From positions 1 to 39,003 of the IMG/VR virus record IMGVR_UViG_3300032285_001348: 39,003 nucleotides of DNA. One strand, given 5' to 3'. Position 1 is the first letter of the stretch; each line of letters starts with the position of its first letter. Below the pieces are notes generated by a model that saw only the letters and a program-made list of their open reading frames with translations, had not been told where the DNA came from and ran no database searches. This stretch comes from a virus. Made by a program: the position numbers and the translations under genes. Positions 9,849 to 28,113 of this stretch are shown in pieces.

Positions 9849-11255
9849 TCAAACCCCTTTCGATTGACGATACTGCTTGACCGCGTTGCGTAACCCTGCC
9901 TGCGTGGTAGCCTTCTCGTCAAGTGCCAACGCCTGCGCTTGGTCAAGGGTGTCCTGCATCAAAACGCGGTGGCACATAACCGGAGCACCCTGACCCTGGC
10001 GGCGCACCCGAGCGTTGAACTGCTCATACAGGTCAAGGCTCCAGTTGAGGCCATACCAGACTAGGATGTGGCCGTTTTGCTGAAGGCCGTCAATCCCGTG
10101 ACCCATCGACGCCGGGTGGCCGATCATCAGGGCGCAGTCACCCGTCTTCCACCGGTGCATGGCGTTTGTTAGCGACGCCTCGCTCTTGCACTCGGTCAGG
10201 TTGATCGGACGCAATGCCTTGAATCGCTCCATGATCCGCTCGGCGTCTGACCGATAGGCATAGGCGCACAGCACCGGGCTACCCTGGGCCTCATCGATGA
10301 TGTCCTCCAGTGCATCCAGCTTGAGTTCGTGCACCGGCTCCCACAGCGGCATTCCGGCCACCGGGTACATGGCACCGTTGGAGAACTGCAAGCACTTGTT
10401 TGTCAGGGTCGCTTGGTTGAACGCCTCGACCTCTTTGCCGCTGTCAAGCACGAGGAAAAACTCTTTCTCTAGCTTGTCGTACTTGGCCCGCAACTCGTCA
10501 GGCATCTCGATCTCGACGTTGTTGACGATCAAGTCAGGCAGCGGGTTGTAGTCTTCTGCGCTCATCTCAAGCGTGATGTCGCCGATCAACTTCTTGATCG
10601 TGTCCTCGGTGTCCTCGTATGCCACTTCTTTGTAGGGGCCGACCTTGCGATAGAACCGGGTGCGGAATGCTGTCTTGCTGGTGCCAAGGCGCTCACCCCC
10701 ATCTACCACAAGGAACTGCCCGTGGAGGTCTTTGTAACCGTTGCTTGCCGGAGTGCCGGTAAGGCCGGTAGCCCAGTCGAACTTATCCGCGATCTTGCGA
10801 AACGCCTTAACCCGGTTCGTGGCGCTGTTTTTCATCTTTGATATCTCGTCCCAGATGATCCCGTTGAAGGGCATCGGGCGATCCTTCTTGACGAAGTAGG
10901 TCTGTAGCGTTTCGGACAACCAGCCGAGGTTCTCGTAGTTGATGAGGTACACATCAGCCGGACGCAGTAGAGCCCGTGTGCGCTGATCCTTGGTGCCCAC
11001 AACCATGCTGAATTGGAGGTGCTTGGTGTGCTCCCACTTGACAGCCTCCTGACGCCACACGAGTCGGATGACGCGGATCGGTGCGACGATGATGACGCCT
11101 CGCAGGAACTGAGTGCGGATCAGGTGCGCCAGCGTGGTCAGCGTGATGACGGTCTTACCTAAGCCCATGTCCAGCCACAGCATCGAGTGCGGATGCGTGG
11201 CTTGAAAGTTGACCGCCTTCTTCTGGTAGTCGTGGAGCAGGTTAGGGGTTAGCAT
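9849..11255 (-). CDS. SNF2-like superfamily 2 DNA helicase
   Basis: The protein has 468 aa. Motif I is LDMGLGKT (Lys34), the DEAD-box-type Walker B is WDEISK (Asp136-Glu137), motif III is LTGTPASN (165-172), and motif VI is the Arg-rich NARVRRQGQ near the C-terminus. HDYQKKAV at the start is the Q-like motif of the SNF2 group. Such small phage SNF2-like helicases lie in replication or recombination modules and may act in fork remodelling or branch migration. The start chosen is ATG at 11255, with AAAGGG upstream; it overlaps the methyltransferase end by 14 bases. A longer frame to 11339 would lie wholly in the upstream gene. Confidence 0.88.
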   Translation of the reverse strand: MLTPNLLHDYQKKAVNFQATHPHSMLWLDMGLGKTVITLTTLAHLIRTQFLRGVIIVAPIRVIRLVWRQEAVKWEHTKHLQFSMVVGTKDQRTRALLRPADVYLINYENLGWLSETLQTYFVKKDRPMPFNGIIWDEISKMKNSATNRVKAFRKIADKFDWATGLTGTPASNGYKDLHGQFLVVDGGERLGTSKTAFRTRFYRKVGPYKEVAYEDTEDTIKKLIGDITLEMSAEDYNPLPDLIVNNVEIEMPDELRAKYDKLEKEFFLVLDSGKEVEAFNQATLTNKCLQFSNGAMYPVAGMPLWEPVHELKLDALEDIIDEAQGSPVLCAYAYRSDAERIMERFKALRPINLTECKSEASLTNAMHRWKTGDCALMIGHPASMGHGIDGLQQNGHILVWYGLNWSLDLYEQFNARVRRQGQGAPVMCHRVLMQDTLDQAQALALDEKATTQAGLRNAVKQYRQSKGV

Positions 11256-12318
11256 CAATTGCCCTTTGAATACGAGCACCAATCCAGCGAACCACAGGCA
11301 CGGCCCAACTGTTGCCAAGCGCTTTGTACCTCGGCCCATCTGGGCATTTGTCTTTAATGTTGGTGTAGTTGTCTGGGAAGCCTTGTAGTCGTTCGCATTC
11401 GACGGGGGTTAGGCGACGAACTTGTGATTGCACAATGGCTTTTCCTTGATTCACCCATTGATTACTGCCCCATTTTTTACCATCAACCGCTTCAATTGTT
11501 GGGTATACGCAAGGCACAAATGTTTCTGACTCGGCATCCAAACGACCCATTGAACCATCATTTAGGCACATAGAAACGATTGCTTCAGTCTCTACTCGGT
11601 CGTTCCCTGTGCGACTGAACGGAGGGCCAGCAGTAACTGTGGGGGCAGCACTTTGCCGCGCTTCTCTGCTCGGCGCAATATCCCGGCGCAAGCCTTCGAA
11701 CTCAAAAAGAATCTCGGCGGGATTGATGTCTGCTCTAGCACTTGCGACAACGAACACACGCTTGCGTCGTTGGGCCACTCCGAAATATTGGGCATCGCAG
11801 ACCCGCCACGCGATTGTTCTTTGGGAACCAAACACACAACCAGCGTTTTGCCATTTGCCCCCTGGTGGTTGTAGTTCACCATCTTCTCCGGCAAGTCCCG
11901 CCAAAAAGCATCCGAATGCGTTGTCTTTGGTGTTGAGGACGCCGGGCACGTTTTCCCAGAAGATGACGGAAGGAGCCAATCCGGCAAGTGATCGTCTGAA
12001 GTCAATGACATTAGCAATCTCGCAAAAAGTTAAAGACAAGTTACCCCGCGCATCGTCCAAAGACTTACGCAAACCCGCAACGGAAAACGCCTGGCAAGGT
12101 GTTCCCCCACAAAATAAATCAGGAGCCTCAACTTCTCCGCTCAGGATGCGATCAGGCAGCGATGTCATGTCCCCATGATTAGGTACTGTGGGGTAGTGAT
12201 GTTGAAGAACTTCACAGGGAAACTTTTCAATTTCGCTGACCCACGCGGCTTTCCAACCCAGCGGCTCCCATGCAACGCTGGCGGCTTCAATGCCTGAACA
12301 AACAGAACCGAACCTCAT
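11242..12318 (-). CDS. DNA (cytosine-5) methyltransferase
   Basis: The protein has 358 aa. The C5 motifs are present in order: motif I FGSVCSGIEAAS (SAM binding), motif IV GGTPCQAFS with catalytic Cys75, motif VI WENVPG (Glu122), motif VIII QRRKRVF (183-189), motif IX RRLTPVECERLQGFP and motif X YKALGNSWAVPV. The target recognition region is about residues 195-285; its site cannot be read. No restriction endonuclease is next to it, so it is probably a solitary enzyme that protects phage DNA or marks it. The ATG at 12318 is preferred over a GTG at 12324 because GAGG is 7 bases upstream; it overlaps the VRR-NUC stop (ATGA). Confidence 0.93.
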   Translation of the reverse strand: MRFGSVCSGIEAASVAWEPLGWKAAWVSEIEKFPCEVLQHHYPTVPNHGDMTSLPDRILSGEVEAPDLFCGGTPCQAFSVAGLRKSLDDARGNLSLTFCEIANVIDFRRSLAGLAPSVIFWENVPGVLNTKDNAFGCFLAGLAGEDGELQPPGGKWQNAGCVFGSQRTIAWRVCDAQYFGVAQRRKRVFVVASARADINPAEILFEFEGLRRDIAPSREARQSAAPTVTAGPPFSRTGNDRVETEAIVSMCLNDGSMGRLDAESETFVPCVYPTIEAVDGKKWGSNQWVNQGKAIVQSQVRRLTPVECERLQGFPDNYTNIKDKCPDGPRYKALGNSWAVPVVRWIGARIQRAIDANP

Positions 12319-12602
12319 TGACACACCTCAATCATGTCGTCAACCATCCGCAGACCCGCGATCACATCGTCGATCACATAGACCACGACCTTGTACTGAC
12401 GCAGCCGATGATGCTCGCGCTCCTGGGCTTGCGTGGGCTTCTCTCCGCTGCGTTTGAACTCGCAAAAAAAGATTTTTCCACTCGGCAGCACAAACATTCG
12501 ATCAGGCACCGCAGCCCTTGCGGGACTGGTGAACTTGTAGACCATGAGCCCGCGTTCTTTGGCGTAAGCGCAGACCTTGGCTTCAATTTGCTTTTCGAGC
12601 AT
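12315..12602 (-). CDS. VRR-NUC domain nuclease
   Basis: The protein has 95 aa, the size of stand-alone VRR-NUC proteins. The PD-(D/E)xK core is visible: PDRMFVLPSGKIFFCEFK gives Pro33-Asp34-Arg35 and Glu48-x-Lys50, followed by the supporting KPTQAQEREHHRLR segment. Stand-alone phage VRR-NUC proteins are structure-specific nucleases that can cut branched DNA, so a role in resolving junctions or recombination is likely. It is coupled to the methyltransferase by a 4-base overlap, and begins inside the end of the small coiled-coil gene. Confidence 0.85.
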   Translation of the reverse strand: MLEKQIEAKVCAYAKERGLMVYKFTSPARAAVPDRMFVLPSGKIFFCEFKRSGEKPTQAQEREHHRLRQYKVVVYVIDDVIAGLRMVDDMIEVCQ

Positions 12603-14616: not shown

Positions 14617-15279
14617 TTACGACTGAGTCATCATGAAGGGCGGCAGGCCCATCGCGGGGGCGGTTGCTGCTTGAGCAAACATCCCAGCGGGAGCACCGGC
14701 GACAGCACCAAACAGCTTGGACGCATCGACAGCATTCTCGCCGAACGCCGCATCGTCGCCAGCAAACTGAACAGCGATCAGGTCACAGCGAACACCGCGA
14801 CCATAGCTGTTCTCTTGCAGCCAAGGTTTGACCGCAGCGTTGACCCGGCAACCGCCGTACATCTTGCGAGCGAGCATTTGGTATGCCATCGTGTTCGCCG
14901 GGTCGATCGGCTGACCATCGGCTTGGATCATCTGCGGTGCAGAGTCACGGCCTGCCGTGATGAACACATGACCAGCATAGCCATCGTAGGGTTGGAAGGT
15001 TTTCTTGTTGACCTTCTCCTCGCCACGACCAAAGCAGCGCAGCTTGCGATCCGTTTGGATCATGCCCATCACGGCCTGACCGTGTTCTTTCCACTTCTCA
15101 AGCGCCATCGCAGCGTAGCGTTGCATGAACTGCTGGAAGCCCGCGTGATCCTGGGGCATGATGAACTCGCAGTTGTAGCTGATGCGCTCTTTGCCGTTGG
15201 ACTCGTTGACCTGCCGCTGGGGCTCGGCGAGGTGGGGGAACGACAGACGCACGTTCGACAGAAGAATGATTTCAGACAT
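14617..15279 (-). CDS. DUF2815-family putative ssDNA-binding protein
   Basis: The protein has 220 aa. The segments NVRLSFPHLAEP at the start, YDGYAGHVFITAGRD in the middle, and YGGCRVNAAVKPW with the following GRGVRCDLIAVQFAGD at about 140-175 are the marks of DUF2815, a family thought to be single-stranded DNA-binding proteins of phages by context and predicted OB-like fold. The C-terminal 40 residues are flexible, Ala/Gly/Met-rich (FAQAATAPAMGLPPF). It sits between the Cas4-like nuclease and the polymerase, as a replication SSB would. AAAGGTAACTGTAA precedes the ATG. Confidence 0.8.
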   Translation of the reverse strand: MSEIILLSNVRLSFPHLAEPQRQVNESNGKERISYNCEFIMPQDHAGFQQFMQRYAAMALEKWKEHGQAVMGMIQTDRKLRCFGRGEEKVNKKTFQPYDGYAGHVFITAGRDSAPQMIQADGQPIDPANTMAYQMLARKMYGGCRVNAAVKPWLQENSYGRGVRCDLIAVQFAGDDAAFGENAVDASKLFGAVAGAPAGMFAQAATAPAMGLPPFMMTQS

Positions 15280-15292
15280 TTACAGTTACCTT

Positions 15293-16594
15293 TTAAAGAA
15301 GCCACGAGGGCAGGGATTCGGCAGCGGGTGCTGCCTCAATTGCGCTGAACAGAGGTGCAGCGTTAACGCTAATGGCCTTGCGGCTATCAGACTCGGGAAC
15401 GACGGTCAGCTTGCCTGCTAACTTGACGACATATTCGCCGTCCATAGTCTTGAGTTGCCTGTCGGTAAGTTGCACTTTGGTGCCGTCGCGCTTCTCCCAA
15501 CTCAGCTTCTCAGCCTTGGCGGGACTGACAAGTTTCGTTTCGTAGATAGCGCTCTTAGGGATACCCATCTTGACCAGCTTCTCAGCCATCTGATCCTCAG
15601 GCAACGCCCATGCGCGGGAGCCGCGACCATTGACCAACTTGAGGCCAGGGATAGACTGCCCAGCCTCCAGACGGCGCAGGGCTTCCTTCTCCACACCTTC
15701 AAGGAGTTGACGCATCAGGGGAGCGGCTTCCATGATCTGACGCAATTGATCGTCGCTCATGGCCGTGGGATCTTTATCGGCAGACTGCTGCGCGATGTCG
15801 AGTGTTTGCATTACAGGCTGGAACATGATTCCCACCTCCTTCATTACGTTACCTGCCAGCGCGGCGCATGAGCCCTTAGCGCGGCAGTATTTACATTGAC
15901 TTTCACCCGGCACCAGCGGTGCATCAGGGGCTTCGGTAGCCCTTGCCTGCTGGCCCAGCAATGATACACGATCGAGCAGTTCCTTCGTGGTCACTGTCCA
16001 TGTGCTGATCGGATTCATGCCCTTGAGCGCCAGCTTAGGTTGAATGATCGTCATGCGGACTTCTTGCCACGGGTACTGCTCAGGCACGTTCCAGCCAAGC
16101 TGACATTCGGCCAGGACACCGATGGCGTACTGCTCCAGTTGCAGGTTGCCCTCGGCCTCCACAATGCCCATGCCGTCCTTGTAATCGATGATCTCCAGCA
16201 CACCAAGGCCGCGCAGTTGCACATCCACGGTACCGCTAAGATCGTCGCGGTGCAGGAACCACTTAGGGTCAACCCGAGTCTCGGCGATCACTTCGCACAT
16301 ACCAAGGAACACTTCTTTGCGCGACTTGATGTAGTCAAGGGCCACCTGCACACGGGCAGCGCGAGGTGCGTCCACAAGGAACTCGCCTTCATGGTCAGTC
16401 AGCAGCAAGCCGACGAAGGTCGATGCATCCCTGTGCATTTCGATGCAGTGCTCCAGCAGCGTGTGCGTGTGGGTGCCGTCAACCGCAGCAGGGCCGGAGT
16501 CCTGCTCGGGGTACTTAGCCTCTTCCCGAATCGAGCCGGAGCACAAGGCCCAGCGGCTGCGCTTCGATGGGGACAGTTGCGCGTGGGCGGGCAT
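15293..16594 (-). CDS. DUF2800-type Cas4/RecB-like nuclease
   Basis: The protein has 433 aa. PD-(D/E)xK core residues are seen in LSGTVDVQLRG (Asp124), LEIIDYKDG (Glu134, Asp137, Lys139) and QLEQYA (Gln155). Three cysteines, ESQCKYCRAKGSCAAL (234, 237, 243), and Cys18 in RWALCSGS match the four-cysteine arrangement that holds an iron-sulphur cluster in Cas4 and AddB-type nucleases. It is probably a 5'-3' or end-processing exonuclease in recombination with the DUF2815 protein. I place the start at the ATG at 16594 with GAAGG 7 bases upstream; a GTG at 16597 is next to it. The start overlaps the previous stop codon. Confidence 0.8.
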   Translation of the reverse strand: MPAHAQLSPSKRSRWALCSGSIREEAKYPEQDSGPAAVDGTHTHTLLEHCIEMHRDASTFVGLLLTDHEGEFLVDAPRAARVQVALDYIKSRKEVFLGMCEVIAETRVDPKWFLHRDDLSGTVDVQLRGLGVLEIIDYKDGMGIVEAEGNLQLEQYAIGVLAECQLGWNVPEQYPWQEVRMTIIQPKLALKGMNPISTWTVTTKELLDRVSLLGQQARATEAPDAPLVPGESQCKYCRAKGSCAALAGNVMKEVGIMFQPVMQTLDIAQQSADKDPTAMSDDQLRQIMEAAPLMRQLLEGVEKEALRRLEAGQSIPGLKLVNGRGSRAWALPEDQMAEKLVKMGIPKSAIYETKLVSPAKAEKLSWEKRDGTKVQLTDRQLKTMDGEYVVKLAGKLTVVPESDSRKAISVNAAPLFSAIEAAPAAESLPSWLL

Positions 16595-17019
16595 CACGCA
16601 GCCTTCAGAGCCTCAACACCCTGGTACAGGGCGGCGTAGTGCTCGGGCTTGACATCGCTGATGTTGTGGTACGCGAGGCTCGTCAGCACGTTCTGAATTT
16701 GAGCGCCCTTCTGGGGGCCAAGCGCTTTGTACGAGGTCATGACGTAGTCGATCAAACCTTTGCCGTCGGTGAACGGTGCGCCGGTGGGAACCGGAACAGG
16801 TGCAGGGGCGACGAAGGTCGGCGGCGCGGGCATGACTACCACAGGAGCGGGTGCAACCACGGGAGCGGGCACAGGAGCAGCCACGATAGGGGCCACCACG
16901 GGTGCGGGCTGCACTACTTGTGCAACGGGTGCAGCAACTGCTACATTGCCGTTCTCCAGCTTGGCGGTCAGTGCGACCACAGCGGCGGTGAGGGCTTCAA
17001 TCTTGAGTTCGAGTGACAT
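16594..17019 (-). CDS. Pro/Ala/Val-rich linker protein of the replication operon
   Basis: The protein has 141 aa in three parts: an N-terminal helix with heptad spacing (SLELKIEALTAAVVALTAKL), a low-complexity stretch at about residues 28-80 made of Pro, Ala and Val (APVVAPIVAAPVPAPVVAPA), and a C-terminal domain of about 55 residues (GLIDYVMTSYKALGPQKGAQ). The build suggests an oligomerising helix tethered by a flexible arm to a small helical domain. I recall similar proteins near DUF2800 genes in other phages, with no known role. Its stop codon overlaps the nuclease start, and its beginning overlaps the ribbon-helix-helix gene by 23 bases. Confidence 0.7.
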   Translation of the reverse strand: MSLELKIEALTAAVVALTAKLENGNVAVAAPVAQVVQPAPVVAPIVAAPVPAPVVAPAPVVVMPAPPTFVAPAPVPVPTGAPFTDGKGLIDYVMTSYKALGPQKGAQIQNVLTSLAYHNISDVKPEHYAALYQGVEALKAA

Positions 17020-17361: not shown

Positions 17362-19839
17362 ATGACAGTTGCCTCGTCGGTGCAACAGCACCCGGCGTCC
17401 GTCGATGCGTACATCAGACACGGGTGGTCGCTTGTACCCATCCCGATGGGGACAAAAGGCCCACGCACTCCTGGGTGGAACATTAAGAGCAACGCGCTCA
17501 AGACGCAGTCCGAGTTGCCGCTCGGCTACGGCATCGGGCTTGCCCACGCTTATAGCGGCACGATGGCCCTCGACATCGACGACTGGGGTATGGCAGGCAC
17601 CCTGCTGCATGAACGCGGCATAGACCTGCAAGCCCTATATACAGCGCCCGATGCAGTCATCATTGACAGTGGCAGACAAGGGCACGGCAAACTGCTTTAT
17701 CAGATGCCCTTCGGCATAGCGCTACCCTCGAAGAAGATCCTGCACACCGGCGTGACAGCATACGAACTACGCTGCGCCACCAGCAACGGCCTCACCGTGC
17801 AGGATGTGCTGCCGCCTAGTATCCACCCAGATACCCGGCAGCCTTATCGCTGGGCAGGCAGTGGCAACTGGATGCGTTTGCCTGTGATCCCGCAGCCCTT
17901 GCTTGATCTGTGGCAGTCGATGCTCACCCAAGACAAAGAGCGCACGATCAGTACTGATGGTGCGGTGGACGCATCGTGGGAAGAGATCCGTCAAGCCATC
18001 GAGTTTGTCCCCTCGGACTGTTCGCGTGACGAGTGGGTCAACATCGGCATGGCGATGCATTGGGCGGGGACACAGACAGAGCAGCTTGACCAAGCTCTGC
18101 ACCTCTGGAACGAGTGGAGCGCACAGTCGCAAACCAAGTACCCCGGCGAGAAAGAGATCATCAAGCAGTGGAGCAGCTTCCGCTCGGACAAAGCCACTGC
18201 GGTCAAGCTGGGCACACTCTTTCACATCGCCAAGCAGCACGGGTGGCAACGTCCTGCGCTCGATGTGAGCGATCTGTTCAAAAACATCGCACCCCCAAAA
18301 CTCACCCCCGCTGATCTCACGGCTGGCCTGCGCCCCCAGCCGCCCGAGATTGACCTAGACCTGTGGCCTGCAATCCTAGCGGAGCGGGCACGGCAGATCA
18401 GCGGGGAGATGGGGTGCGATCCACTAGTGCCGCTGTTCGCAGGCATGGCTGCGATCTGCGGGGCTGCTGACTCTCGCTCTCGCCTGGAACTGATCCCTCG
18501 GTTCCAAGTGCCGCCTGTGTTGTGGCTGATGACGATCGGTAGCCCTGCGCTCAAGAAGAGCCCAGGCTCAAAGCCCATGCTCAAGGTGTTGCCCGAGATT
18601 GAGTACGAGGATCGTCCACGGTATCAGAAAGAACTGCTGGCATGGGAGGGCAAAGAGGCAGCATACAGTGCGGCGAAGAAGTCATTCCTAGACTGGTCAG
18701 CCTCACCCGATGCACTACTGGGTGCAGACCAAGCGCCCCATGTGCCCGAGATGCCCGCGCAGCCCGTGCCCGTCAAGATCACGATCGGCGACATCACGAG
18801 TCAGAAGATGGTGCGTAGCGCAGCCGATCGTCCTCGCGGCCTGCTGCTGCACCTTGACGAAATGAACTCATGGATCAGGAAGCTCACCGACAAGTCAAGC
18901 GGTGATGATCGGTCGGCATGGGTTGTGTCGTATGAATCCGATCGGTATGAGATGGATCGCGTGGGTGCTGGCAGCATCCATTGCGAGAACCTCGCCGTCA
19001 GCATCTACGCCAACGTGCAGCCTGAGATCTATCGGCAGAGTGTGGCTGCACTGGCCGCTGACGGCCTGCTCCAGCGGTTCATCCCCGCAGTGCTGCGTGA
19101 ACGGGATTGGGGCATCGGTGACCCCATCCCCGACTTTCTGACCAACATCAGCGCCTGGGAAAACACGGTGCGCCTCGTGTACTCGCTGCCCGCGCAGACG
19201 TACAAATTGAGCCCCGAAGCATACGAGGTGTTTCGGGATTTCCAGCGTTGGTACAACCAAGCCAAGCAGGACGAGGTGCTACTGCGTAGCGGGGGGACTT
19301 TTCTGACCGCTTTTGGCAAATTAGAGGGCACCGTTGGCCGTTTGGCTCTGCTGTGGCACATGATGGAAAGCCCTTTCTCGCCCACGGTGAGCGCCGATGT
19401 GATTGAACGTGTGGTGCGATTCATCAAAGGTTATGTGATCCCGGCCTACCGCTACGCTTATGGTGAGATGGGCACCACGTTCGAGGAGTGGGTCGTAGAC
19501 TATGTGATCCAGTACGCCGACAAGCCCATCCTGACCCTGTCCGAGATTAAGCGCAGTGCCCGTAGGCAGCTAGAGGGTAAGAACAACTGGCTGCAAGACC
19601 AATGGGTGCTTGGTGCGATGCAGGTGCTCGAAGAAGCGCAGTATGTGATCCGCATGGATGATGGCAGCAAGGAGCACCTGCATCAGGCACAGTGGGCGAT
19701 CGACCCTAGGCTCGTGACGATGTTCGCCGACTACCGGGTGAGCGTGATCCGCGCCAAGCAGCGGCAGAAGGACGACATCTACAAGCTGTCCACGAAAGAA
19801 AAGCCCCGAGTCTACGGGGCCGACATTTTAGCGGGCTAA
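17362..19839 (+). CDS. Primase-helicase: PrimPol, PriCT and DUF3987 domains
   Basis: The protein has 825 aa. Residues about 10-180 are a bifunctional primase/polymerase domain: LDIDDW (Asp71, Asp73), SGRQGHGKLLY (His108) and YELRC (Glu135) are the expected catalytic residues, followed by DVLPPSIHPDTRQPYRW. Residues about 205-275 match PriCT (AIEFVPSDCSRDEWVNIGMA). Residues about 330-780 match the helicase-like DUF3987 domain: GSPALKKS (393-400) is a Walker A variant and LLLHLDEMNSW (Asp499-Glu500) is Walker B. It is the only plus-strand gene between two minus-strand clusters, with its own promoter candidate. Its end overlaps the convergent 47-aa gene by 12 bases. Confidence 0.88.
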   Translation: MTVASSVQQHPASVDAYIRHGWSLVPIPMGTKGPRTPGWNIKSNALKTQSELPLGYGIGLAHAYSGTMALDIDDWGMAGTLLHERGIDLQALYTAPDAVIIDSGRQGHGKLLYQMPFGIALPSKKILHTGVTAYELRCATSNGLTVQDVLPPSIHPDTRQPYRWAGSGNWMRLPVIPQPLLDLWQSMLTQDKERTISTDGAVDASWEEIRQAIEFVPSDCSRDEWVNIGMAMHWAGTQTEQLDQALHLWNEWSAQSQTKYPGEKEIIKQWSSFRSDKATAVKLGTLFHIAKQHGWQRPALDVSDLFKNIAPPKLTPADLTAGLRPQPPEIDLDLWPAILAERARQISGEMGCDPLVPLFAGMAAICGAADSRSRLELIPRFQVPPVLWLMTIGSPALKKSPGSKPMLKVLPEIEYEDRPRYQKELLAWEGKEAAYSAAKKSFLDWSASPDALLGADQAPHVPEMPAQPVPVKITIGDITSQKMVRSAADRPRGLLLHLDEMNSWIRKLTDKSSGDDRSAWVVSYESDRYEMDRVGAGSIHCENLAVSIYANVQPEIYRQSVAALAADGLLQRFIPAVLRERDWGIGDPIPDFLTNISAWENTVRLVYSLPAQTYKLSPEAYEVFRDFQRWYNQAKQDEVLLRSGGTFLTAFGKLEGTVGRLALLWHMMESPFSPTVSADVIERVVRFIKGYVIPAYRYAYGEMGTTFEEWVVDYVIQYADKPILTLSEIKRSARRQLEGKNNWLQDQWVLGAMQVLEEAQYVIRMDDGSKEHLHQAQWAIDPRLVTMFADYRVSVIRAKQRQKDDIYKLSTKEKPRVYGADILAG

Positions 19840-22199: not shown

Positions 22200-22292
22200 T
22201 CATAGGGGTGCGTCCTCGTAGTCCTCGTGACCCAGTGGGACGCGAGTGGGTTGATTGATGGGTATGGGTTGGGGTGGGAAAGGCCAATTCAT
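22200..22292 (-). CDS. Possible 30-aa Pro-rich microprotein
   Basis: The open frame encodes 30 aa beginning MNWPFPPQPIPINQPTRVP and ending with the acidic EDYEDAPL. Its ATG overlaps the stop codon of the 57-aa membrane protein (ATGA), the usual sign of coupling in this genome. There is no recognised family, and the product is very short, so it may not be real. Confidence 0.35.
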   Translation of the reverse strand: MNWPFPPQPIPINQPTRVPLGHEDYEDAPL

Positions 22293-22462
22293 TTTTTCAA
22301 TTCTTTCTCGGGATAAATTGATTTTTGTACATGAGTCAATTCCTTAGCGAAAAGCAGCGTTCCAGTTTCCTCAAGGTCGATCGGATGAAAGAACACAACT
22401 GAGAGCCATGCAAGGGTGAGGCCCAGGACAAGCCCGCAGACAAAACCGATAGCGAATGTCAT
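22289..22462 (-). CDS. 57-aa single-pass membrane microprotein
   Basis: The protein has 57 aa. Residues 3-25 form one membrane helix (FAIGFVCGLVLGLTLAWLSV), followed by a polar tail with ELTHVQKSIYPEKELKK. CTGGAG lies 9 bases before the ATG, inside a weaker copy of the leader repeat shared by the cluster (22471-22482). Function is unknown; its size and topology recall Rz/spanin-like or superinfection-exclusion peptides, but there is no direct evidence for either. Confidence 0.65.
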   Translation of the reverse strand: MTFAIGFVCGLVLGLTLAWLSVVFFHPIDLEETGTLLFAKELTHVQKSIYPEKELKK

Positions 22463-22519
22463 TTTCAATTCTCCAGTGGTTCAGAAAAAGTTTCGGATGC
22501 CTTATAAGAGGCCGAATCC

Positions 22520-22840
22520 TCAATTGGCGGTCAATGATTCGGGATTTTTCGGCATGACCAAATCGCCTCGCGGTTTGCGCCCACGTTTAGCGGGCACCTT
22601 GGGTTCACCCAGTGGCGGGATAAACGATTCGTGCAGGGCGGGTGCGAGCGCTTCGATGGTGCCCAGTACGTCGACCAGTCGCAGCACCGATGCGTTGGGT
22701 GACCGTTCACCGGTCACCCACTTGTGGAACGTGTACAGGGGGACGCCGAGGTAAGCTGCGGCGCGGGGTTCATCAAGGGACAAGCGGGTCATCAGGGCTG
22801 CGAATTCGGGCCTGGGTGCGGGTTTGATAGAAGTGGACAT
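22520..22840 (-). CDS. Helix-turn-helix regulator with AT-hook-like tail
   Basis: The protein has 106 aa. Residues about 23-60 match a Cro/XRE-type helix-turn-helix (EPRAAAYLGVPLYTFHKWVT, then GERSPNASVLRLVDVLG). Near the C-terminus, residues 85-92 read KRGRKPRG, very like an AT-hook (core RGR-P), which binds the minor groove of AT-rich DNA. It is the best candidate in the genome for the protein that acts on the ACCC-N3-GGGT sites. It follows a strong terminator (22861-22890) after the upstream genes, and the leader has a diverged copy of the repeat (22848-22860). Confidence 0.7.
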   Translation of the reverse strand: MSTSIKPAPRPEFAALMTRLSLDEPRAAAYLGVPLYTFHKWVTGERSPNASVLRLVDVLGTIEALAPALHESFIPPLGEPKVPAKRGRKPRGDLVMPKNPESLTAN

Positions 22841-22860
22841 AGGTAGGATTCCAATGGGTC

Positions 22861-22890
22861 AAAAAAGCCCGCCAGGGGGATCCTGGCGGG
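22861..22890 (-). terminator. Intrinsic terminator upstream of the HTH gene
   Basis: On the minus strand CCCGCCAGG-ATCCC-CCTGGCGGG is a perfect 9-bp hairpin followed by CTTTTTT. It would stop transcription coming from the genes at 22912-25424, 20 bases before the start of the helix-turn-helix gene, so that gene should depend on readthrough or on antitermination. Confidence 0.85.
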
Positions 22891-22974: not shown

Positions 22975-23276
22975 TAAGTGCGTTCCTCACCCAACGCACC
23001 CTGAATACGTTCCAGTAGATTTTGGAAAAATTCAGGGGCATAGTCGGTGTTTTTGGCATGGTCTTCTACGAATGCCAACGCAACCCGCAGGGTATCCCGC
23101 AGGGATTCACTCTGTTCAAGGGATTGGGTTTTCTCATAGTGCAGCCGATCACACTCAGCATCAAGGTCAGCGATGCGGGCGAACAATGCAGCCGTGCCGG
23201 TGTAGCCCTCAGCGTATGCGAGTCGCTCCGCTTCGTCGGCGGGTAGGGTTTGTAGGTCGATCACGCGAGGGTTCAC
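22974..23276 (-). CDS. Coiled-coil protein of the accessory cluster
   Basis: The protein has 100 aa. I chose the GTG at 23276 because AAAGGGGG lies 6 bases upstream and the codon overlaps the previous stop (GTGA); a longer frame to 23324 has no ribosome site. Residues about 30-80 are a charged helix with heptads (ARIADLDAECDRLHYEKTQS, LEQSESLRDTLRVALAFVED). I do not recognise the family. Confidence 0.6.
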   Translation of the reverse strand: MNPRVIDLQTLPADEAERLAYAEGYTGTAALFARIADLDAECDRLHYEKTQSLEQSESLRDTLRVALAFVEDHAKNTDYAPEFFQNLLERIQGALGEERT

Positions 23277-23524
23277 GCCAGACCCCCTTTCCACACCGAA
23301 CCGAGATCCGCCCAGGTTTTCCACGATTCGACGATATGAGTGCCGTAACGCGGTTTGGTCGTGCGGATATTGACGCGGATCATTTCAGACCGTTGACGTG
23401 CAACACGCTGAACTTGTTCAGCCTGTTCAATCGTGTCGCATTCAACGATCATTTTGTTAATGCGATCGGAGGCATAGCCCCAGCCCGACATAAATTTATC
23501 AGTCATCGTGACATAGAGTTTCAT
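23273..23524 (-). CDS. Conserved small phage protein, function unknown
   Basis: The protein has 83 aa with the segments MTDKFMSGWGYASDRINKMI, VECDTIEQAEQVQRVARQRS and MIRVNIRTTKPRYGTHIVES. I recall this order of motifs (FMSGWG, a C-D-T turn, a helix, then the strand with TTKP) in many phage proteins with no known function. Its leader has a full copy of the repeat (23534-23559) with GGAG nine bases before the ATG. It overlaps the next gene by 4 bases (GTGA). Confidence 0.7.
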   Translation of the reverse strand: MKLYVTMTDKFMSGWGYASDRINKMIVECDTIEQAEQVQRVARQRSEMIRVNIRTTKPRYGTHIVESWKTWADLGSVWKGGLA

Positions 23525-23551
23525 GGTTTCATGCTCCAGTGGGTTACAGGG

Positions 23552-23815
23552 TTACAGGGAAAGGTACTTTTTCTCAGCCCGACGCATGGCACGATATTCG
23601 CGTCGAATCAGGTCGATCAAGGGTGCACTGCCACCCCAAATCAACGTAGGGCCACGGCACTCCAGTCGTTCGCACACTTGGGCACCGTCGTCAAAGCGCA
23701 CATACCCGCCGCTGCGGGGTGCGAACACTTCGAACTCGATGGGGGTGCCATCGAGTCGGTGGGGATAGCGCACCAAGGCGCGATTGTGTTCTAGGTGCTT
23801 AAAGTAAGCTCGCAT
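23552..23815 (-). CDS. Small accessory protein, function unknown
   Basis: The protein has 87 aa, mixed alpha/beta with a basic C-terminal helix (LIDLIRREYRAMRRAEKKYL). The middle (PRSGGYVRFDDGAQVCERLE) is beta-like. GGGAGG lies 8 bases before the ATG and comes from the end of the upstream gene. Its last Leu codon and stop (CTGTAA) lie in the repeat that leads the next gene. No family recognised. Confidence 0.6.
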   Translation of the reverse strand: MRAYFKHLEHNRALVRYPHRLDGTPIEFEVFAPRSGGYVRFDDGAQVCERLECRGPTLIWGGSAPLIDLIRREYRAMRRAEKKYLSL

Positions 23816-23818
23816 GAT

Positions 23819-23962
23819 TCAAGCCTCCCAGATGGCGTAGTTTTTGGGCATCCGTTGAATTCCGTGCTGGGCACGGAATCGGGAAACAGCATCCCGCTTA
23901 TTTGTGCCGTAAATGGTCATGGTGTAAACCCAACCGGGAATGTGAATAGCAAACGATCGCAT
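23819..23962 (-). CDS. 47-aa conserved small phage protein
   Basis: The protein has 47 aa: a strand (FAIHIPGWVYTMTIYGTNKR), a helix (DAVSRFRAQHG) and a final RMPKNYAIWEA. I recall similar strand-helix-strand small proteins with an RxP...W end in other phages, with no function. The ATG follows the full leader repeat (GGAG plus 8 bases). The stop codon lies 3 bases before the start of the 87-aa gene, for which this gene supplies the ribosome site. Confidence 0.7.
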   Translation of the reverse strand: MRSFAIHIPGWVYTMTIYGTNKRDAVSRFRAQHGIQRMPKNYAIWEA

Positions 23963-23980
23963 AATATGTGCTCCAGTGGG

Positions 23981-24130
23981 TTACAGGGTGAACAGGAACA
24001 GAATGAAAGCGTACAGGGCGAGTGCTGCGACGACAGCACCCAGGACGACTTGAAGGGTGCTGGGTTCGCGTCTAGCCCGCTCGATGGGTTCGGGGTGTAG
24101 ATCGACGTAGGTGAGACGGTGACGGGACAT
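23981..24130 (-). CDS. 49-aa tail-anchored membrane microprotein
   Basis: The protein has 49 aa. Residues 1-25 are polar and basic (MSRHRLTYVDLHPEPIERAR), and residues about 26-48 form one membrane helix (LQVVLGAVVAALALYAFILF) that runs to the C-terminus. It has the leader repeat (24139-24151) with GGAG 8 bases before the ATG. Its last codons CTG-TAA are part of the leader repeat of the next gene, so gene and repeat are joined without a gap. Confidence 0.7.
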   Translation of the reverse strand: MSRHRLTYVDLHPEPIERARREPSTLQVVLGAVVAALALYAFILFLFTL

Positions 24131-24160
24131 GGTAGGTGCTCCAGTGGGTTAGGGTTAAAT

Positions 24161-24182
24161 GGCCCAGGGTTGACCCTAGGCC
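24161..24182 (-). terminator. Terminator-like hairpin
   Basis: GGCCCAGGGT and ACCCTAGGCC form a 10-bp stem with one wobble pair. On the minus strand it lies just after the 113-aa gene and is followed by ATTTAA. It could end or slow transcription between the 113-aa gene and the 49-aa gene. Confidence 0.5.
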
Positions 24183-24191
24183 AGGCGAAAC

Positions 24192-24533
24192 TTAATCGAC
24201 GGCCTTGACGTATCCGTCAGCGTCAATGACAACACGGCTGCCGTCGAAAAACTCGTAAACACCATCTGCGACGAGTTCAAAGCGCTCGTGTTCGGAATAG
24301 AAAAAGTCTTCGGGTGTAACGTGCAAGTGCCCATTGATGTATTTATCAGCGATTGTACCGACCCGAAACTCAGATCCGCTCACATAGATCAGCGAACCAT
24401 CAAAGAGCTCGTAGACAGTCGCCTCCCCGTCCCAGTCTTGAACGAGTGAGCACGAGTGATGATCGGCGAGTCGCTGGGCTTGTGCTTTAGCGCCATGCTC
24501 GTACAGCGCGACAATGTTTTCTGCTTGGGACAT
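24192..24533 (-). CDS. Small acidic accessory protein, function unknown
   Basis: The protein has 113 aa and is acidic. An N-terminal helix (AENIVALYEHGAKAQAQRLA) is followed by two related beta units: ATVYELFDGSLIYVSGSEF at about 38-56 and DGVYEFFDGSRVVIDADGY at about 90-108. Both carry the pattern Y-E-L/F-F-D-G-S, so the second half looks like an internal duplication. It has the leader repeat with GGAG 8 bases before the ATG. No known family. Confidence 0.65.
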   Translation of the reverse strand: MSQAENIVALYEHGAKAQAQRLADHHSCSLVQDWDGEATVYELFDGSLIYVSGSEFRVGTIADKYINGHLHVTPEDFFYSEHERFELVADGVYEFFDGSRVVIDADGYVKAVD

Positions 24534-24581
24534 AGTAAGTGCTCCAGTGGGTTAACGATTACAGGGACGAGTAACTATAGA

Positions 24582-24650
24582 TCAATCACCCGCTGGGTGA
24601 TTGAATTTGTTTCTATGGACAGGCCAGGCCTCATAGGGAAATCCTATGGG
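24582..24650. other. Structured intergenic region with nested hairpins
   Basis: TCAATCACCC-GCT-GGGTGATTGA (24582-24604) is a perfect 10-bp hairpin whose centre is a copy of the ACCC-N3-GGGT palindrome. A second set follows: CTATG (24613-24617) can pair with CATAG (24632-24636), which can also pair with CCTATG (24643-24648), so two folds compete. A short AGGCC-A-GGCCT palindrome lies between. It separates the 70-aa gene from the 113-aa gene, and could act as an attenuator or terminator. Confidence 0.6.
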
Positions 24651-24665
24651 CCCAGGTTTTGCCAA

Positions 24666-24878
24666 TCAGCCGAAATAGAGGACATCGACTTGATGCGTCG
24701 CGGCTTGAATGACTCCAACGATTTCGCACGAGTCGCAGTCGGGCATGAGTCGGATGAGATCGTCCGCTGCGCGGATGACTCGCAGACAATCAATAGCGCA
24801 CCCATCGGTTTCGTCCATTCCCAGAATGTCGCTATCAAAGTGCATCCACCGCGAAGAGAGGATTTCGGAAAGTTTCAT
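24666..24878 (-). CDS. Small accessory protein, function unknown
   Basis: The protein has 70 aa. The ATG at 24878 is preferred because the leader-repeat core TGGAGCAC lies 8 bases upstream; a longer frame to 24920 would ignore it. The sequence is acidic and mixed (ILGMDETDGCAIDCLRVIRA, LIRLMPDCDSCEIVGVIQAA), with three cysteines and no classic metal motif. No family recognised. Confidence 0.6.
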   Translation of the reverse strand: MKLSEILSSRWMHFDSDILGMDETDGCAIDCLRVIRAADDLIRLMPDCDSCEIVGVIQAATHQVDVLYFG

Positions 24879-24946
24879 AGTGTGTGCTCCAGTTTCTGCG
24901 GGATTCGCATTCCAATGCACCCATCGAAAGGTGCATCAGAATGGAA

Positions 24947-25132
24947 TCAGACAATGAAGTCGGGATGATTTGTGACTTCGAAGATTTCAGCCCAGCGCAT
25001 CAATTGAACACGCGAGGTTTTGGTGCGGGCTGCGCGGATCAGCGCGGAAAGGCCGCGAGCTACAACGTCTTTCATGTTTCCCGCGTTGTATTGGGAAAGG
25101 TTTGTGACTTCGCGGATTTCGGATTTAGTCAT
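24947..25132 (-). CDS. Small helical accessory protein, function unknown
   Basis: The protein has 61 aa, basic and helical (TKSEIREVTNLSQYNAGNMK, VVARGLSALIRAARTKTSRV). It could be a small nucleic-acid-binding protein, but no motif is clear. The leader repeat with GGAG 8 bases before the ATG supports expression. The following 68 bases before the 70-aa gene are non-coding. Confidence 0.6.
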   Translation of the reverse strand: MTKSEIREVTNLSQYNAGNMKDVVARGLSALIRAARTKTSRVQLMRWAEIFEVTNHPDFIV

Positions 25133-25175
25133 GATGAGTGCTCCAATGGGTTAACGATTACAGGGGCGGGGTGAA

Positions 25176-25424
25176 TCAGTAGCCGAACATCCAGATGGGC
25201 AGGGCTTGTTTGCGAATCAGGCTGGCACGGGTTTTGGGGTGAAGGAACGCCACATCCATCCACTTGTAGTGCGCTTCGATGGCGACATCGTGGGCGAGCA
25301 TGGCATCTTGGGCGAGCTTGTCGGCGCCGCCGAAAGTGGAGGCCATCAGAGCGTGGCGGGCGAGGGCGAGCTTCGCAGCATGGCGAGCTGCTTCTGCTTT
25401 GGTGAGGCATTCGGTTTTGGTCAT
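25176..25424 (-). CDS. Small helical accessory protein, first gene of the cluster
   Basis: The protein has 82 aa and is rich in Ala, with long helices (CLTKAEAARHAAKLALARHA, GADKLAQDAMLAHDVAIEAH) and a C-terminal basic segment with WMFGY. It starts five bases after the GGAG of a leader-repeat copy (25430-25440), a shorter distance than elsewhere. It is the first gene after the promoter at 25458-25485, so it should be the most strongly expressed early product. No family recognised. Confidence 0.65.
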   Translation of the reverse strand: MTKTECLTKAEAARHAAKLALARHALMASTFGGADKLAQDAMLAHDVAIEAHYKWMDVAFLHPKTRASLIRKQALPIWMFGY

Positions 25425-25457
25425 CAGTGCTCCAGTAGGTGCGTTGTTGAAGTCTCA

Positions 25458-25485
25458 ATGATACCCAGTGGGTTGCACGAGTCAA
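25458..25485 (-). promoter_or_regulatory. Strong candidate promoter for the accessory cluster with an embedded operator
   Basis: On the minus strand TTGACT (25485-25480) and TATCAT (25463-25458) stand 16 bases apart, each matching the sigma70 consensus at 5 of 6 positions. The spacer holds ACCCACTGGGT (25473-25463), a copy of the repeated palindrome, so a protein bound there would block RNA polymerase. The first start codon, 25424, is 34 bases downstream of the -10 box. Confidence 0.7.
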
Positions 25486-25985
25486 GAAATCAATTCCAAT
25501 CAAACCCAGCGGGTCAATAGGAATTCTCTATCCCACTGGGTCTAGTGCGTTGGGGGTGTGACAACTGCACTAGCGGCGAGGGGTAGGGTTTTGAGATTCT
25601 GAAAAATCTGTGCTTTTCAAAAAAGTCGTGGGACAAACCTAGAACCCGCGGAAGCCGGTTGTCACACTCGCCGCCCTGAACCCACTGGAGTCGTTCCAGC
25701 GGGTCAATAGCACCCGCTGGGTCAATGGTTCACTTACCCGCTGGGTTCCCGAGTACCCGCTGGGTTGAGTGCTCATCCGCTGCGTTGCACCACGACCCAG
25801 CGGGTTTCCGTTGTGCGTTGCACCACGACCCAGCGGGTTTCCGTTGTGCGTTGCACCACGGCCTGGGGCGACCTGGATTCCCTGGCCGACGGGGGCCGGG
25901 TAGGGCCGGCGCAACTGGCCTGCGGCTACGGTGGCACCACGAACCATTTTTTAAATTTTTCAAAATAAGCAGTTACCCACCGGGT
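25463..25985. repeat. Array of ACCC-N3-GGGT palindromes
   Basis: Copies of ACCC-N3-GGGT (spacers AGT, AGC, GCT or ACC) are at 25463-25473, 25504-25514, 25712-25722, 25736-25746, 25755-25765, 25795-25805, 25828-25838 and 25975-25985. One-base variants are at 25531-25541 (TCCC), and weaker ones at 25694-25704 and 25775-25785. Another full copy is at 24588-24598. The flank GGGTCAAT is kept at three sites. The arms are short but the repeat count and the clustering in a non-coding region are far above chance. Confidence 0.85.
25781..25860. repeat. 33-bp tandem repeat, two and a half copies
   Basis: The unit at 25781-25813, beginning TGCGTTGCACCACGACCCAG, is repeated exactly at 25814-25846, and a third, diverging copy begins at 25847. 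Each full unit carries one ACCCAGCGGGT palindrome. Confidence 0.9.
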
Positions 25986-26038: not shown

Positions 26039-26572
26039 ATGGAAAAGCCCATCGCACAATCCATAGGCGCAGATGTATCGCTGCCAGACTGGCTTACTGC
26101 CGGTGACCCTGCGCCTATCAAGCCCTCTCGGGAGGCTAGAGTGCTTGTGTTTCAACAGTTTGAGACTGTCTTCCCTCGCGTGATTGACCTGATCGCATCG
26201 GGCTACACGCTGACCAGCGCGGTCAAGGAAGTGCCCTACGGGATTGATCTCGGAGCGTTCACCCGCTGGATCAAAAAAGACCCCACGCGCAACGAGTTGT
26301 ACAAAGAGGCCAAGGAGATCCGCACCGAGGCCTGGGCGGGTAAGGTCATCGAACACGCCACCGCTGAGGACTCGTTTGAGGATGTAGCGCGATCCAAGCT
26401 GATCGTCGATGCCTACAAGTGGCTGATGGCTGCGGACAATCGCAAGACTTACGGCCAATCGACCCAGATCGAGTTGGGTGGGCAGATTAGTATCTTGGGA
26501 GCGTTGGCTGCGGCTAACGAGCGCACACTCGAACTGGTTGAGGATGTGACACCTCGCCTTGAAAACGACTAA
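26039..26572 (+). CDS. Terminase small subunit
   Basis: The protein has 177 aa. Residues about 55-80 (IASGYTLTSAVKEVPYGIDL, then GAFTRWIKKD) form the helix-turn-helix that recognises the packaging site, followed by a long helix (YKEAKEIRTEAWAGKVIEHA) for ring assembly and a C-terminal helix ending in charged residues that contact the large subunit. This order and the place directly before the large subunit (TAATG overlap) are typical. AGGA lies 11 bases upstream. It is the first late gene on the plus strand after the control region. Confidence 0.82.
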   Translation: MEKPIAQSIGADVSLPDWLTAGDPAPIKPSREARVLVFQQFETVFPRVIDLIASGYTLTSAVKEVPYGIDLGAFTRWIKKDPTRNELYKEAKEIRTEAWAGKVIEHATAEDSFEDVARSKLIVDAYKWLMAADNRKTYGQSTQIELGGQISILGALAAANERTLELVEDVTPRLEND

Positions 26573-28113
26573 TGCAAAAACTCAGATACAGCGCAGAAGA
26601 AGAGCAACTGTTGATGGCGCAGTTGTGGTCTGCTCAGATTAAAGATGACCCAGAGGCTTTTGTATTGTTCTGTTTCCCGTGGGGGCAGGCCAACACACCA
26701 CTAGAGCGATTCAAAGGGCCGCGTAAATGGCAAAGAGAAACTCTTCGGGACATCAGGGATTTCATTCGTGAGAATCGAGACAAGTTGTCGCAAGAGGCGC
26801 TGATCGACGCGATGCGGCAAGCCGTGTCGTCTGGCCGGGGTGTGGGGAAGTCGGCACTGGTTAGCTGGCTCATCCTGTGGATGCTGACAACTCGGATCGG
26901 TAGCTCCGTCATCGTGTCGGCTAACAGCGAGGCGCAGCTTAGAAAAGTCACTTGGGGTGAGTTGACTAAGTGGGCCACCATGAGCCTGAACGCTCATTGG
27001 TGGGAGCCGACGGCTACGAGCCTTCAGCCCGCGCAGTGGCTATCCGAACTCGTCGAGCGTGACCTCAAGAAGGGCACCCGGTACTGGGGCGCTGAGGGGA
27101 AGCTCTGGAGCGAGGAAAATCCTGACGCCTATGCCGGTGTGCACAACATGGACGGCATGATGGTGATTTTCGATGAGGCGTCGGGTATCCCGGATAGCAT
27201 CTGGTCAGTGGCTGCGGGCTTCTTTACAGAGAACATTTTGGATCGGTATTGGCTGGCGTTCAGTAACGGTCGGCGAAACACCGGGTACTTCTACGAGGCG
27301 GTGGACGGGTCAAAGCGGGATTTCTGGCGGTCAAAGAAGATTGACGCTCGGCAGGTCGAGGGCACCGACAAGTCGATCTACCAGCAGATCATCGAGGAGT
27401 ACGGCGAGGACAGCGACGAGGCTCGCGTCGAGGTCTATGGGGACTTCCCCAAAAGCGGGGCTGACCAGTTCATCGGGCCGTATCTGGTCGATGACGCCAT
27501 GAAGCGGCCCAAGTACAAAGACCCGTCAGCACCCATCGTCGTTGGCGTTGACCCCGCTCGCGGGGGTATGGACTCGACCGTGATCGTGGTGCGCCAAGGG
27601 CGTGACATCGTGGCGATCAAACGCTACAAGGGGGACGACACCATGACCACCGTGGGTAACGTCATCGACACCATTGAGGAGTACCGCCCCGCGCTGACCG
27701 TAATCGACGAGGGTGGGCTGGGCTATGGGATCCTTGACAGACTGACCGAGCAGAAGTACAAAGTGCGCGGTGTCAACTTTGGCTGGAAAGCGAAAAACCC
27801 GGTCATGTGGGGTAACAAGCGAGCCGAGATGTGGGGAGCCATGCGAGACTGGCTCAAGACGGCCAGCTTGCCCCAGGACAGAATGCTCAAAGCCGATCTA
27901 GTTGGGCCGATGAAGAAGCCCAACTCGGCAGGCACTATCTTTCTTGAGGGGAAAAAGGAAATGAAGGCTCGCGGACTGGCCTCGCCCGATGCGGCAGACG
28001 CCTTGGCCGCGACTTTTGCGTTTCCTGTGGCCCACCGCGAGTACAATGATCGAGCAACCCGGCGCGTAAATGCTCAATCGAGTAGCGCCATAACATCTTG
28101 GATGGGATCGTAA
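26572..28113 (+). CDS. terL: Terminase large subunit
   Basis: The protein has 513 aa. The packaging ATPase has Walker A GRGVGKS (88-94, Lys93) and Walker B MMVIFDEAS (Asp201-Glu202). The nuclease domain shows VGVDPARGGMDST (Asp327, Asp334), VIDEGGLG (Asp379) and SPDAADALAA (Asp473, Asp476), the acidic set of the RNase H-like fold. Length and order match P22 gp2-type headful terminases. It uses the small subunit to choose DNA, then cuts and pumps it into the portal. It is followed without a gap by the small basic protein gene. Confidence 0.95.
   Translation: MQKLRYSAEEEQLLMAQLWSAQIKDDPEAFVLFCFPWGQANTPLERFKGPRKWQRETLRDIRDFIRENRDKLSQEALIDAMRQAVSSGRGVGKSALVSWLILWMLTTRIGSSVIVSANSEAQLRKVTWGELTKWATMSLNAHWWEPTATSLQPAQWLSELVERDLKKGTRYWGAEGKLWSEENPDAYAGVHNMDGMMVIFDEASGIPDSIWSVAAGFFTENILDRYWLAFSNGRRNTGYFYEAVDGSKRDFWRSKKIDARQVEGTDKSIYQQIIEEYGEDSDEARVEVYGDFPKSGADQFIGPYLVDDAMKRPKYKDPSAPIVVGVDPARGGMDSTVIVVRQGRDIVAIKRYKGDDTMTTVGNVIDTIEEYRPALTVIDEGGLGYGILDRLTEQKYKVRGVNFGWKAKNPVMWGNKRAEMWGAMRDWLKTASLPQDRMLKADLVGPMKKPNSAGTIFLEGKKEMKARGLASPDAADALAATFAFPVAHREYNDRATRRVNAQSSSAITSWMGS

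Follow-up and report, generated by a model that had tools for sequence, protein, structure and literature searches.

Why should one short sequence stand almost unchanged before gene after gene, when the genes themselves belong to different families? The question is raised by the early operon of IMG/VR virus record IMGVR_UViG_3300032285_001348, a phage known from sequence data alone, of which positions 1 to 39,003, the whole 39,003-bp stretch analyzed, are here called the window. A first-pass annotation had recorded seven small genes on the minus strand, each behind a near-identical 13-base leader, and we recover all seven copies of this leader, CCCACTGGAGCAC, where it had placed them, ahead of small early genes. 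On balance we judge it rather probable that the repeat acts as a shared leader for translation starts and doubles as the homology joint of an array of early-gene cassettes. What is new here is that a single joint, specific to the genome, precedes almost every gene of the array, serves also as the ribosome-binding site, and has the breakpoints of gene exchange within it.

The leader in the window and its clade

Three of the seven copies are exact (24539..24551, 24136..24148 and 23968..23980, for the starts at 24533, 24130 and 23962), three carry one mismatch (CCTACTGGAGCAC at 25427..25439 for start 25424, CCCATTGGAGCAC at 25138..25150 for start 25132, and CCCACTGGAGCAT at 23531..23543 for start 23524) and one carries three (GAAACTGGAGCAC at 24884..24896, start 24878), all on the minus strand. 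TGGAGCAC stands 5 nt from the ATG in five copies; at 25424 the gap is 2 nt and at 23524 it is 6 nt. Just before the leader stand CCTGTAATCGTTAA (start 25132), CCCTGTAATCGTTAA (start 24533), TTTAACCCTAA (start 24130) and CCCTGTAACCCTGTAA (start 23524). It had been proposed that the CTGTAA of the repeat is at times also the last codon and stop of the preceding gene, which is correct for the genes ending at 23981 and 23552: CTGTAA directly upstream of the copy at 23968..23980 ends gene 23981-24130, and the first TAA of CCCTGTAACCCTGTAA stops gene 23552-23815.

The observation is thus real, and it is more extensive than the first-pass annotation gave, since there are also degenerate copies, hairpins and a second leader type. 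Degenerate leaders, likewise on the minus strand, precede a repressor-like gene with its start at 22840 (CCCATTGGAATCC, 22846..22858) and the start at 22461 (ACCACTGGAGAAT, 22468..22480), and the variant CCCATTGGAA seen at 22840 recurs at the same position ahead of the repressor-like gene in all four close relatives (L091, L134, L147 and L148). The eighth gene of the array, with its start at 23815, has a different leader, GGAGGCTTGAATC; the GGAGGCTTGAATCATG at 23813-23828 is the dominant leader of another relative, L032, so that a second leader type is present within the window's own array, at gene 23552-23815.

The motif is in clear excess over shuffled sequence: with 1.7 copies of TGGAGCAC expected in the window there are 8 (a number that 0/100 shuffles reach), and a scan for ACTGGAGCAC with at most two mismatches and an ATG within 10 nt returns 12 minus-strand sites, 8 of them in the early operon, and 0 plus-strand sites, whereas the same scan run on shuffled sequence averages 2.2 and never exceeds 7. 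Nor is the motif scattered at random distances from start codons in relatives; in the 30 leaders of the window's five-phage clade the interval between TGGAG and the start codon is 5-9 nt. Across these 30 array leaders ACCCACTGGAGC is nearly invariant. Aligned on TGGAG they read A30 C29 C29 C27 A30 C29 TGGAG30 C28, with information dropping on both sides, and the ACCCAC ahead of TGGAG, conserved in 27-30 of 30 at each position, could by inspection add no base pairs with the 16S rRNA 3' end. The earlier suggestion that conservation goes beyond what ribosome binding needs is therefore borne out by the near invariance of the bases flanking GGAG.

Genome-specific leaders and gene exchange among relatives

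The closest named phage is DSL-LC05, which was assembled from Dishui Lake and is predicted to be virulent (PMC10611076). Its annotated portal, gp10-type stabilization protein and DNA transfer proteins are those of a P22-type virion, and for this reason the initial assignment of the window to the P22-like podoviruses stands. A terminase scan of a viral collection gave 596 related stretches, of which 80 were kept for comparison; these contigs are metagenomic and their genes were called mechanically with a home-made caller. Their early regions share the window's layout, in which the terminase genes run rightward (26039-28113, plus strand) and the early operon runs leftward from 25424, divergent from them. 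The dominant leader, in contrast, varies by genome, for instance GTAACCCGTAAAAGGATCAATC in L026, GTAACCCGTAACCCTTGAAAGGATGTAACC in L049, CCTGAAAGGACCGTAACC in L063 and TGGAGGCTTGAATC in L032. In many relatives this dominant leader consists of a GTAACCC repeat rich in stop codons followed by a genome-specific Shine-Dalgarno block, and an upstream GTAACCC/GTAACCG repeat is common to most of them.

We quantified this in 63 de-duplicated relatives with an anchor gene. TAACC/T is present at -42 to -12 in 185/569 early genes as compared to 8/569 and 21/510 coding windows. In these leaders one TAA codon usually follows another at a distance of 7 nt (148 cases) or 6 nt (68), and as a result stops often fall in several frames (all three in 53 of the 185 leaders, two in 108). 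When the 14 nt before the start are compared, at least 13 of 14 positions are identical in 17.8% of pairs of different genes within a genome, 6.8% of pairs of the same gene between genomes and 1.3% of pairs in which both differ; when leaders are shuffled among genomes within a gene family, the observed mean of 8.51 stands against 7.32 +/- 0.10 and is reached in 0/1000 permutations. The sequence of a leader thus tracks its genome more closely than its gene. Family f27, for example, has AAAGGAACCCGCACC in DSL-LC05 and AAAAGGATCAATC in L026, and DSL-LC05 is 86% identical to L302, which is the same contig as L026, over a 505-nt block spanning f12 and f27. An initial comparison across all genes was uninformative because antisense open reading frames and genes outside the early operon were mixed in, and was replaced by this restricted early-gene test. 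Scans of the viral collection for exact CCCACTGGAGCAC plus ATG returned mostly single, probably chance matches; the informative ones were the distant relative L111/L131 (four copies) and L091, L134, L147, L148 and L160.

The clearest view of exchange comes from L091, L134, L147 (with L160) and L148, which are mutually about 90% identical both across the promoter region and in the genes downstream, and have the leader type AACCCACTGGAGCCCACT, as in the window. By manual count, the arrays of these four and the window hold 25 gene families in 32 slots, with family f12 alone present in all five, and downstream of the array the MIDLQ, repressor-like, MVF and MNWPF genes are found in 5/5. Among the four closest early regions, then, the promoter, f12, the repressor-like gene and the leaders are kept and the cassette genes are almost wholly different. 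Blocks of homology in the arrays of these four relatives have both ends no more than about 50 nt from a start, mostly within the leader: L091 and L147 share f12 only, in a block that opens at -18/-19 relative to its ATG and closes at -22/-30 relative to the next one, and L147 and L148 share two cassettes, in blocks from -19 to -5/-7.

A similar pattern extends over the wider set. In 237 pairs drawn from 58 genomes we found 440 alignments of at least 30 nt and 85% identity or more that cover spacer and leader and have non-homologous genes on both flanks, some of these neighbors possibly being mis-called. One such junction between unrelated genes spans 74 nt at 93% identity and another 95 nt at 95%, and whole junctions, comprising hairpin, GTAACCC repeat and leader (66-98 nt), are 88-95% identical with unrelated genes on either side. 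The early regions of relatives differ by 58 distinct events of gene gain, loss or replacement, and in 41% of these both breakpoints fall within a start window (-36 to +6), as compared to 7% when breakpoints are shifted (0/400 trials). The gene-content comparison thus places breakpoints in the repeat, with starts lacking the leader affected too, and the breakpoints, homology blocks and conserved junctions together back the earlier suggestion that the repeats may be recombination joints through which small genes are swapped. Genes in these early regions have been gained, lost and replaced as leader-to-leader cassettes. Gene duplication was ruled out as the origin of the repeats because the cassette genes fall in different families.

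Competing explanations and known parallels

Under the reading we favor, the leader would have two roles. GGAG and its surroundings, often following a GTAACCC repeat with TAA stops in multiple frames, would act as a ribosome-binding site, so that any small gene behind the leader could be translated independently of the gene before it. At the same time, near-identity before unrelated genes would make the leader a homology joint, allowing genes to be swapped from leader to leader behind one promoter, and exchange would then exploit the homology within the leader itself. This would probably proceed by single-strand annealing, for which the window has a candidate annealase, a Gp2.5-like single-stranded DNA-binding/annealing protein (14617..15279, minus strand; phrog_112; Pfam Enc34_ssDNA-bd), and in the adjoining gene a candidate resecting partner, a RecB-like PD-(D/E)XK exonuclease (15293..16597, minus strand; phrog_69, DUF2800). 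Within a genome the copies might be kept similar by recombination between them, possibly together with selection on translation, even as the leader diverges from lineage to lineage.

Several observations weigh against this reading. Breakpoints occur at 43/185 leader starts and also at 58/384 other starts (p = 0.02), and where starts are tightly packed, those lacking the TAACC leader are affected about equally often (55/232); since breakpoints also occur at such starts, selection for intact genes explains part of the pattern. Some leader variants follow the gene and not the genome; L134 and L148, for example, both have GGAGCACCT ahead of their MLNNETV/MNSQTV gene. The identical stretch is also short, at 13-30 nt and sometimes 60-95 nt with the spacer, which is close to, or under, the length that host RecA can use efficiently. 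Relaxed fidelity has been documented for Rad52-like phage recombinases and not yet for Gp2.5-like ones (PMC3945230).

Alternatively, the leader might serve co-ordinated translational control, with an RNA-binding protein or small RNA, of phage or host, or modified ribosomes switching all cassette genes together; the trans-acting factor would keep the copies identical, and genome-specific leaders would reflect co-evolution with it. The conservation on both sides of GGAG, in bases that do not pair with 16S rRNA, fits this, having been argued in the same way for mycobacteriophage cluster K (PMC3203893), as do the specificity of leaders to genomes and not to genes and the constant placing of TGGAG in 30/30 leaders. 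On its own, however, such control leaves unexplained both the 60-95 nt spacers conserved between unrelated genes and the homology blocks that end inside the leader; moreover, the 5 nt between block and ATG in the window are free to vary, the array gene starting at 23815 lacks the leader, and no candidate trans-acting factor was identified. We therefore regard it as an unlikely sole explanation, and one that is compatible with the cassette joint and does not exclude it.

Less likely still is a filter at gene boundaries, by which random illegitimate recombination would leave only those joints that keep genes intact, the leaders being alike merely as good ribosome-binding sites. Phage mosaic joints do generally lie at gene edges, and the breakpoints at tightly packed starts without a leader are as this explanation would have them. 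However, among starts with a real intergenic gap a breakpoint is found at 40/165 leader starts as compared to 3/150 others, the 60-95 nt junctions stay 85-95% identical while both neighbors differ, and a mere choice of good ribosome-binding sites would leave the near-invariant ACCCAC upstream of the Shine-Dalgarno block in 30 copies unaccounted for. Very improbable, finally, is that the leaders are stoperator-like repressor half-sites, the ACCCACTGG of the leader being a degenerate operator ACCCNNNGGGT that a repressor would bind inside the operon as well: ACCCACTGGAG of the leader does match 9/11 bases of the ACCCACTGGGT in the promoter spacer, and many relatives have arrays of 7-12 operator copies by the promoter, but the right half is broken in the leaders (GGAG for GGGT) and is absent from those of most relatives (e.g., AACCCGTAAAAGGATCAATC in L026) with the same operators ACCCAGTGGGT, so that an operator origin was set aside, and related leaders read GTAAC-TGGAG, GTAACC-TGGAG and GTAACCC-TGGAG, which makes the match plausibly a chance junction of two leader parts.

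The cassette joint has parallels elsewhere, the closest of which go by the name of "start-associated sequences" (SAS); searching the literature by description gave none. As described for cluster K (PMC3203893), the SAS is a 13-bp sequence found only before non-structural genes, 3-7 bp from the ATG, with conserved bases that do not pair with the ribosome and sometimes with the upstream stop codon inside it. The resemblance that had been suggested is indeed close in these published features: the window repeat is likewise about 13 nt long, a few nt before the ATG and ahead of non-structural genes of different families, has a GGAG core with conserved non-pairing bases and sometimes contains the upstream stop codon, and its sites share one orientation, in a minus-strand early operon. 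The window consensus ACCCACTGGAGCAC does not match the GGGATAGGAGCCC given for cluster K; there, one SAS serves a whole cluster of mycobacterial phages, whereas here there is one leader per genome. About half of the cluster K sites have an extended SAS with paired 17-bp imperfect inverted repeats upstream, where the window has the GTAACCC repeat and sometimes a single hairpin of unrelated sequence. Since the consensus differs and the paired inverted repeats are absent, we do not count the window leader as a member of the cluster K SAS, and in the SAS passages of that account there was no claim of gene-exchange breakpoints (PMC3203893).

Nor is the phenomenon confined to cluster K, as had at first been thought, for Citrobacter phage Mordin has a published SAS-like repeat of 26 bp (PMC4611695). 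We find CCTAAACTGGAGAATCTAAA or a near copy of it before 16/18 consecutive small Mordin genes. It shares an ACTGGAG core with the window leader, but Mordin is an Ounavirinae myovirus with longer spacers and no known homology to the window. Repeated start leaders are also seen in unrelated, partly very large phage contigs (L284, with GGGTGTAACCAACAACAACACCAAGGAGACGAAAG; L294, with AAGAATTTAATTTAAAAGGAGAAGATTATT; L245; L255), and repeats of this start-associated kind may thus be more widespread than the literature shows. In the distant phage L131 (contig 3300017565_000013; about 64-70% nucleotide identity where alignable) four genes stand behind the same CCCACTGGAGMAC leader, with similar ACCC..GGGT dyads close by.

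In lambdoid phages, boundary sequences mark the borders of modules, each once per genome. The window joint differs in that one sequence precedes nearly every gene and doubles as a ribosome-binding site. Boundary sequences are short and conserved, and have been proposed as foci for the homologous shuffling of mosaic modules (cited in PMC3029335). In the window's group, mosaic breakpoints likewise fall in the leader, along with those at non-leader starts. Integron arrays, in which promoterless gene cassettes separated by related junctions lie behind one promoter, are alike in this logic only, as here the joint precedes the gene and contains its ribosome-binding site; among the proteins scanned there was no integrase, nor did an attC-type recombination site come up, a search aimed at either not having been made.

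Whether phage mosaicism arises from limited-homology recombination or from illegitimate events followed by selection has been described as an open debate (PMC3945230), and this phage group is a natural, repeated test of it, in which dozens of unrelated genes stand behind one and the same joint, breakpoints fall in that joint, and many relatives lie at graded distances. For start-associated sequences, a puzzle since 2011, our findings suggest a possible role as recombination adaptors in addition to that of translation signals, and searching for leaders is a simple route to fast-swapping early phage genes of unknown function. Much more tentatively, and at odds we would place well below even, we speculate that a large uncultured podovirus group has a dedicated cassette platform, in which a fixed, operator-controlled promoter would drive interchangeable promoterless genes, each behind a genome-specific "universal adaptor" of multi-frame stops, ribosome-binding site and homology arm, with a repressor-like gene at the end; the adaptor would be kept chiefly for recombination by the phage annealase, and its divergence would limit which phages trade genes.

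The promoter, the array genes and their surroundings

The early promoter-like site (TTGACT-16-TATCAT, 25458..25485, minus strand) has the operator-like dyad ACCCACTGGGT (25464-25474) in its spacer. This copy belongs to an array of ACCCNNNGGGT dyads at 25464-25839, between the divergent terminase and early operons, and dyads also occur at 24582-24604 and 22229-22239; in several relatives the dyads by the promoter lie between TTGACA and TAGAAT/TATAAT hexamers, and a de novo repeat search picked up mainly these operator palindromes and not the leaders. Judging from such candidate operators, the early promoter may be repressor-controlled, in phages predicted to be virulent. The last leader gene (22520..22840, minus strand) is helix-turn-helix-like by inspection, had no match in a Pfam search, and is conserved in most relatives, usually after a terminator-like hairpin. 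In DSL-LC05 it probably corresponds to the gene that bears the annotation "repressor protein C", and the product of the window gene is a candidate binder of the dyads.

In the window, the hairpin that ends the array, just ahead of this gene, resembles an intrinsic terminator (22868..22890, minus strand), and most relatives have a GC-rich stretch followed by a T-run at the same site. Where the gap before a leader is 40-150 nt, the spacers have more stable predicted folds than their shuffled versions, with a median z of -1.7 and 42% below -2 as compared to 11% in a coding control, and GCAA and GAAA are the commonest hairpin loops. Intercistronic hairpins are predicted on the minus strand upstream of the leaders for starts 24878 (24908..24943, z -6.1), 24533 (24618..24663, z -3.9, the whole spacer) and 24130 (24160..24183, z -3.6).

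The cassette genes, all on the minus strand, are themselves diverse. The first (25176..25424, 82 aa) has no match in the four close relatives, the second (24947..25132, 61 aa) has homologues in 46 viral contigs, mostly behind other leaders, and for the third (24666..24878, 70 aa) and fourth (24192..24533, 113 aa) a relative was looked for and none was found. The fifth (23981..24130, 49 aa) is the f12 gene, the sole array gene common to all five close phages and present in many other relatives. It is followed by the sixth (23819..23962, 47 aa, phrog_13225), by the gene without the common leader, whose start bears the L032-type sequence (23552..23815), and by the seventh (23273..23524, 83 aa, phrog_5423), which has 69 relatives in diverse phages, behind other leaders.

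A terminase search of bacterial genomes returned one metagenome-assembled gammaproteobacterial contig and zero prophages. The primase-helicase gene of the window (17362-19839, plus strand) lies on the strand opposite the early operon, and the DSL-LC05 primase is in the early orientation, a sign that the replication block may have been inverted or exchanged. Elsewhere in the window, a DNA methyltransferase-like gene (11242-12324, minus strand) overlaps an SNF2-like helicase gene (9849-11339).

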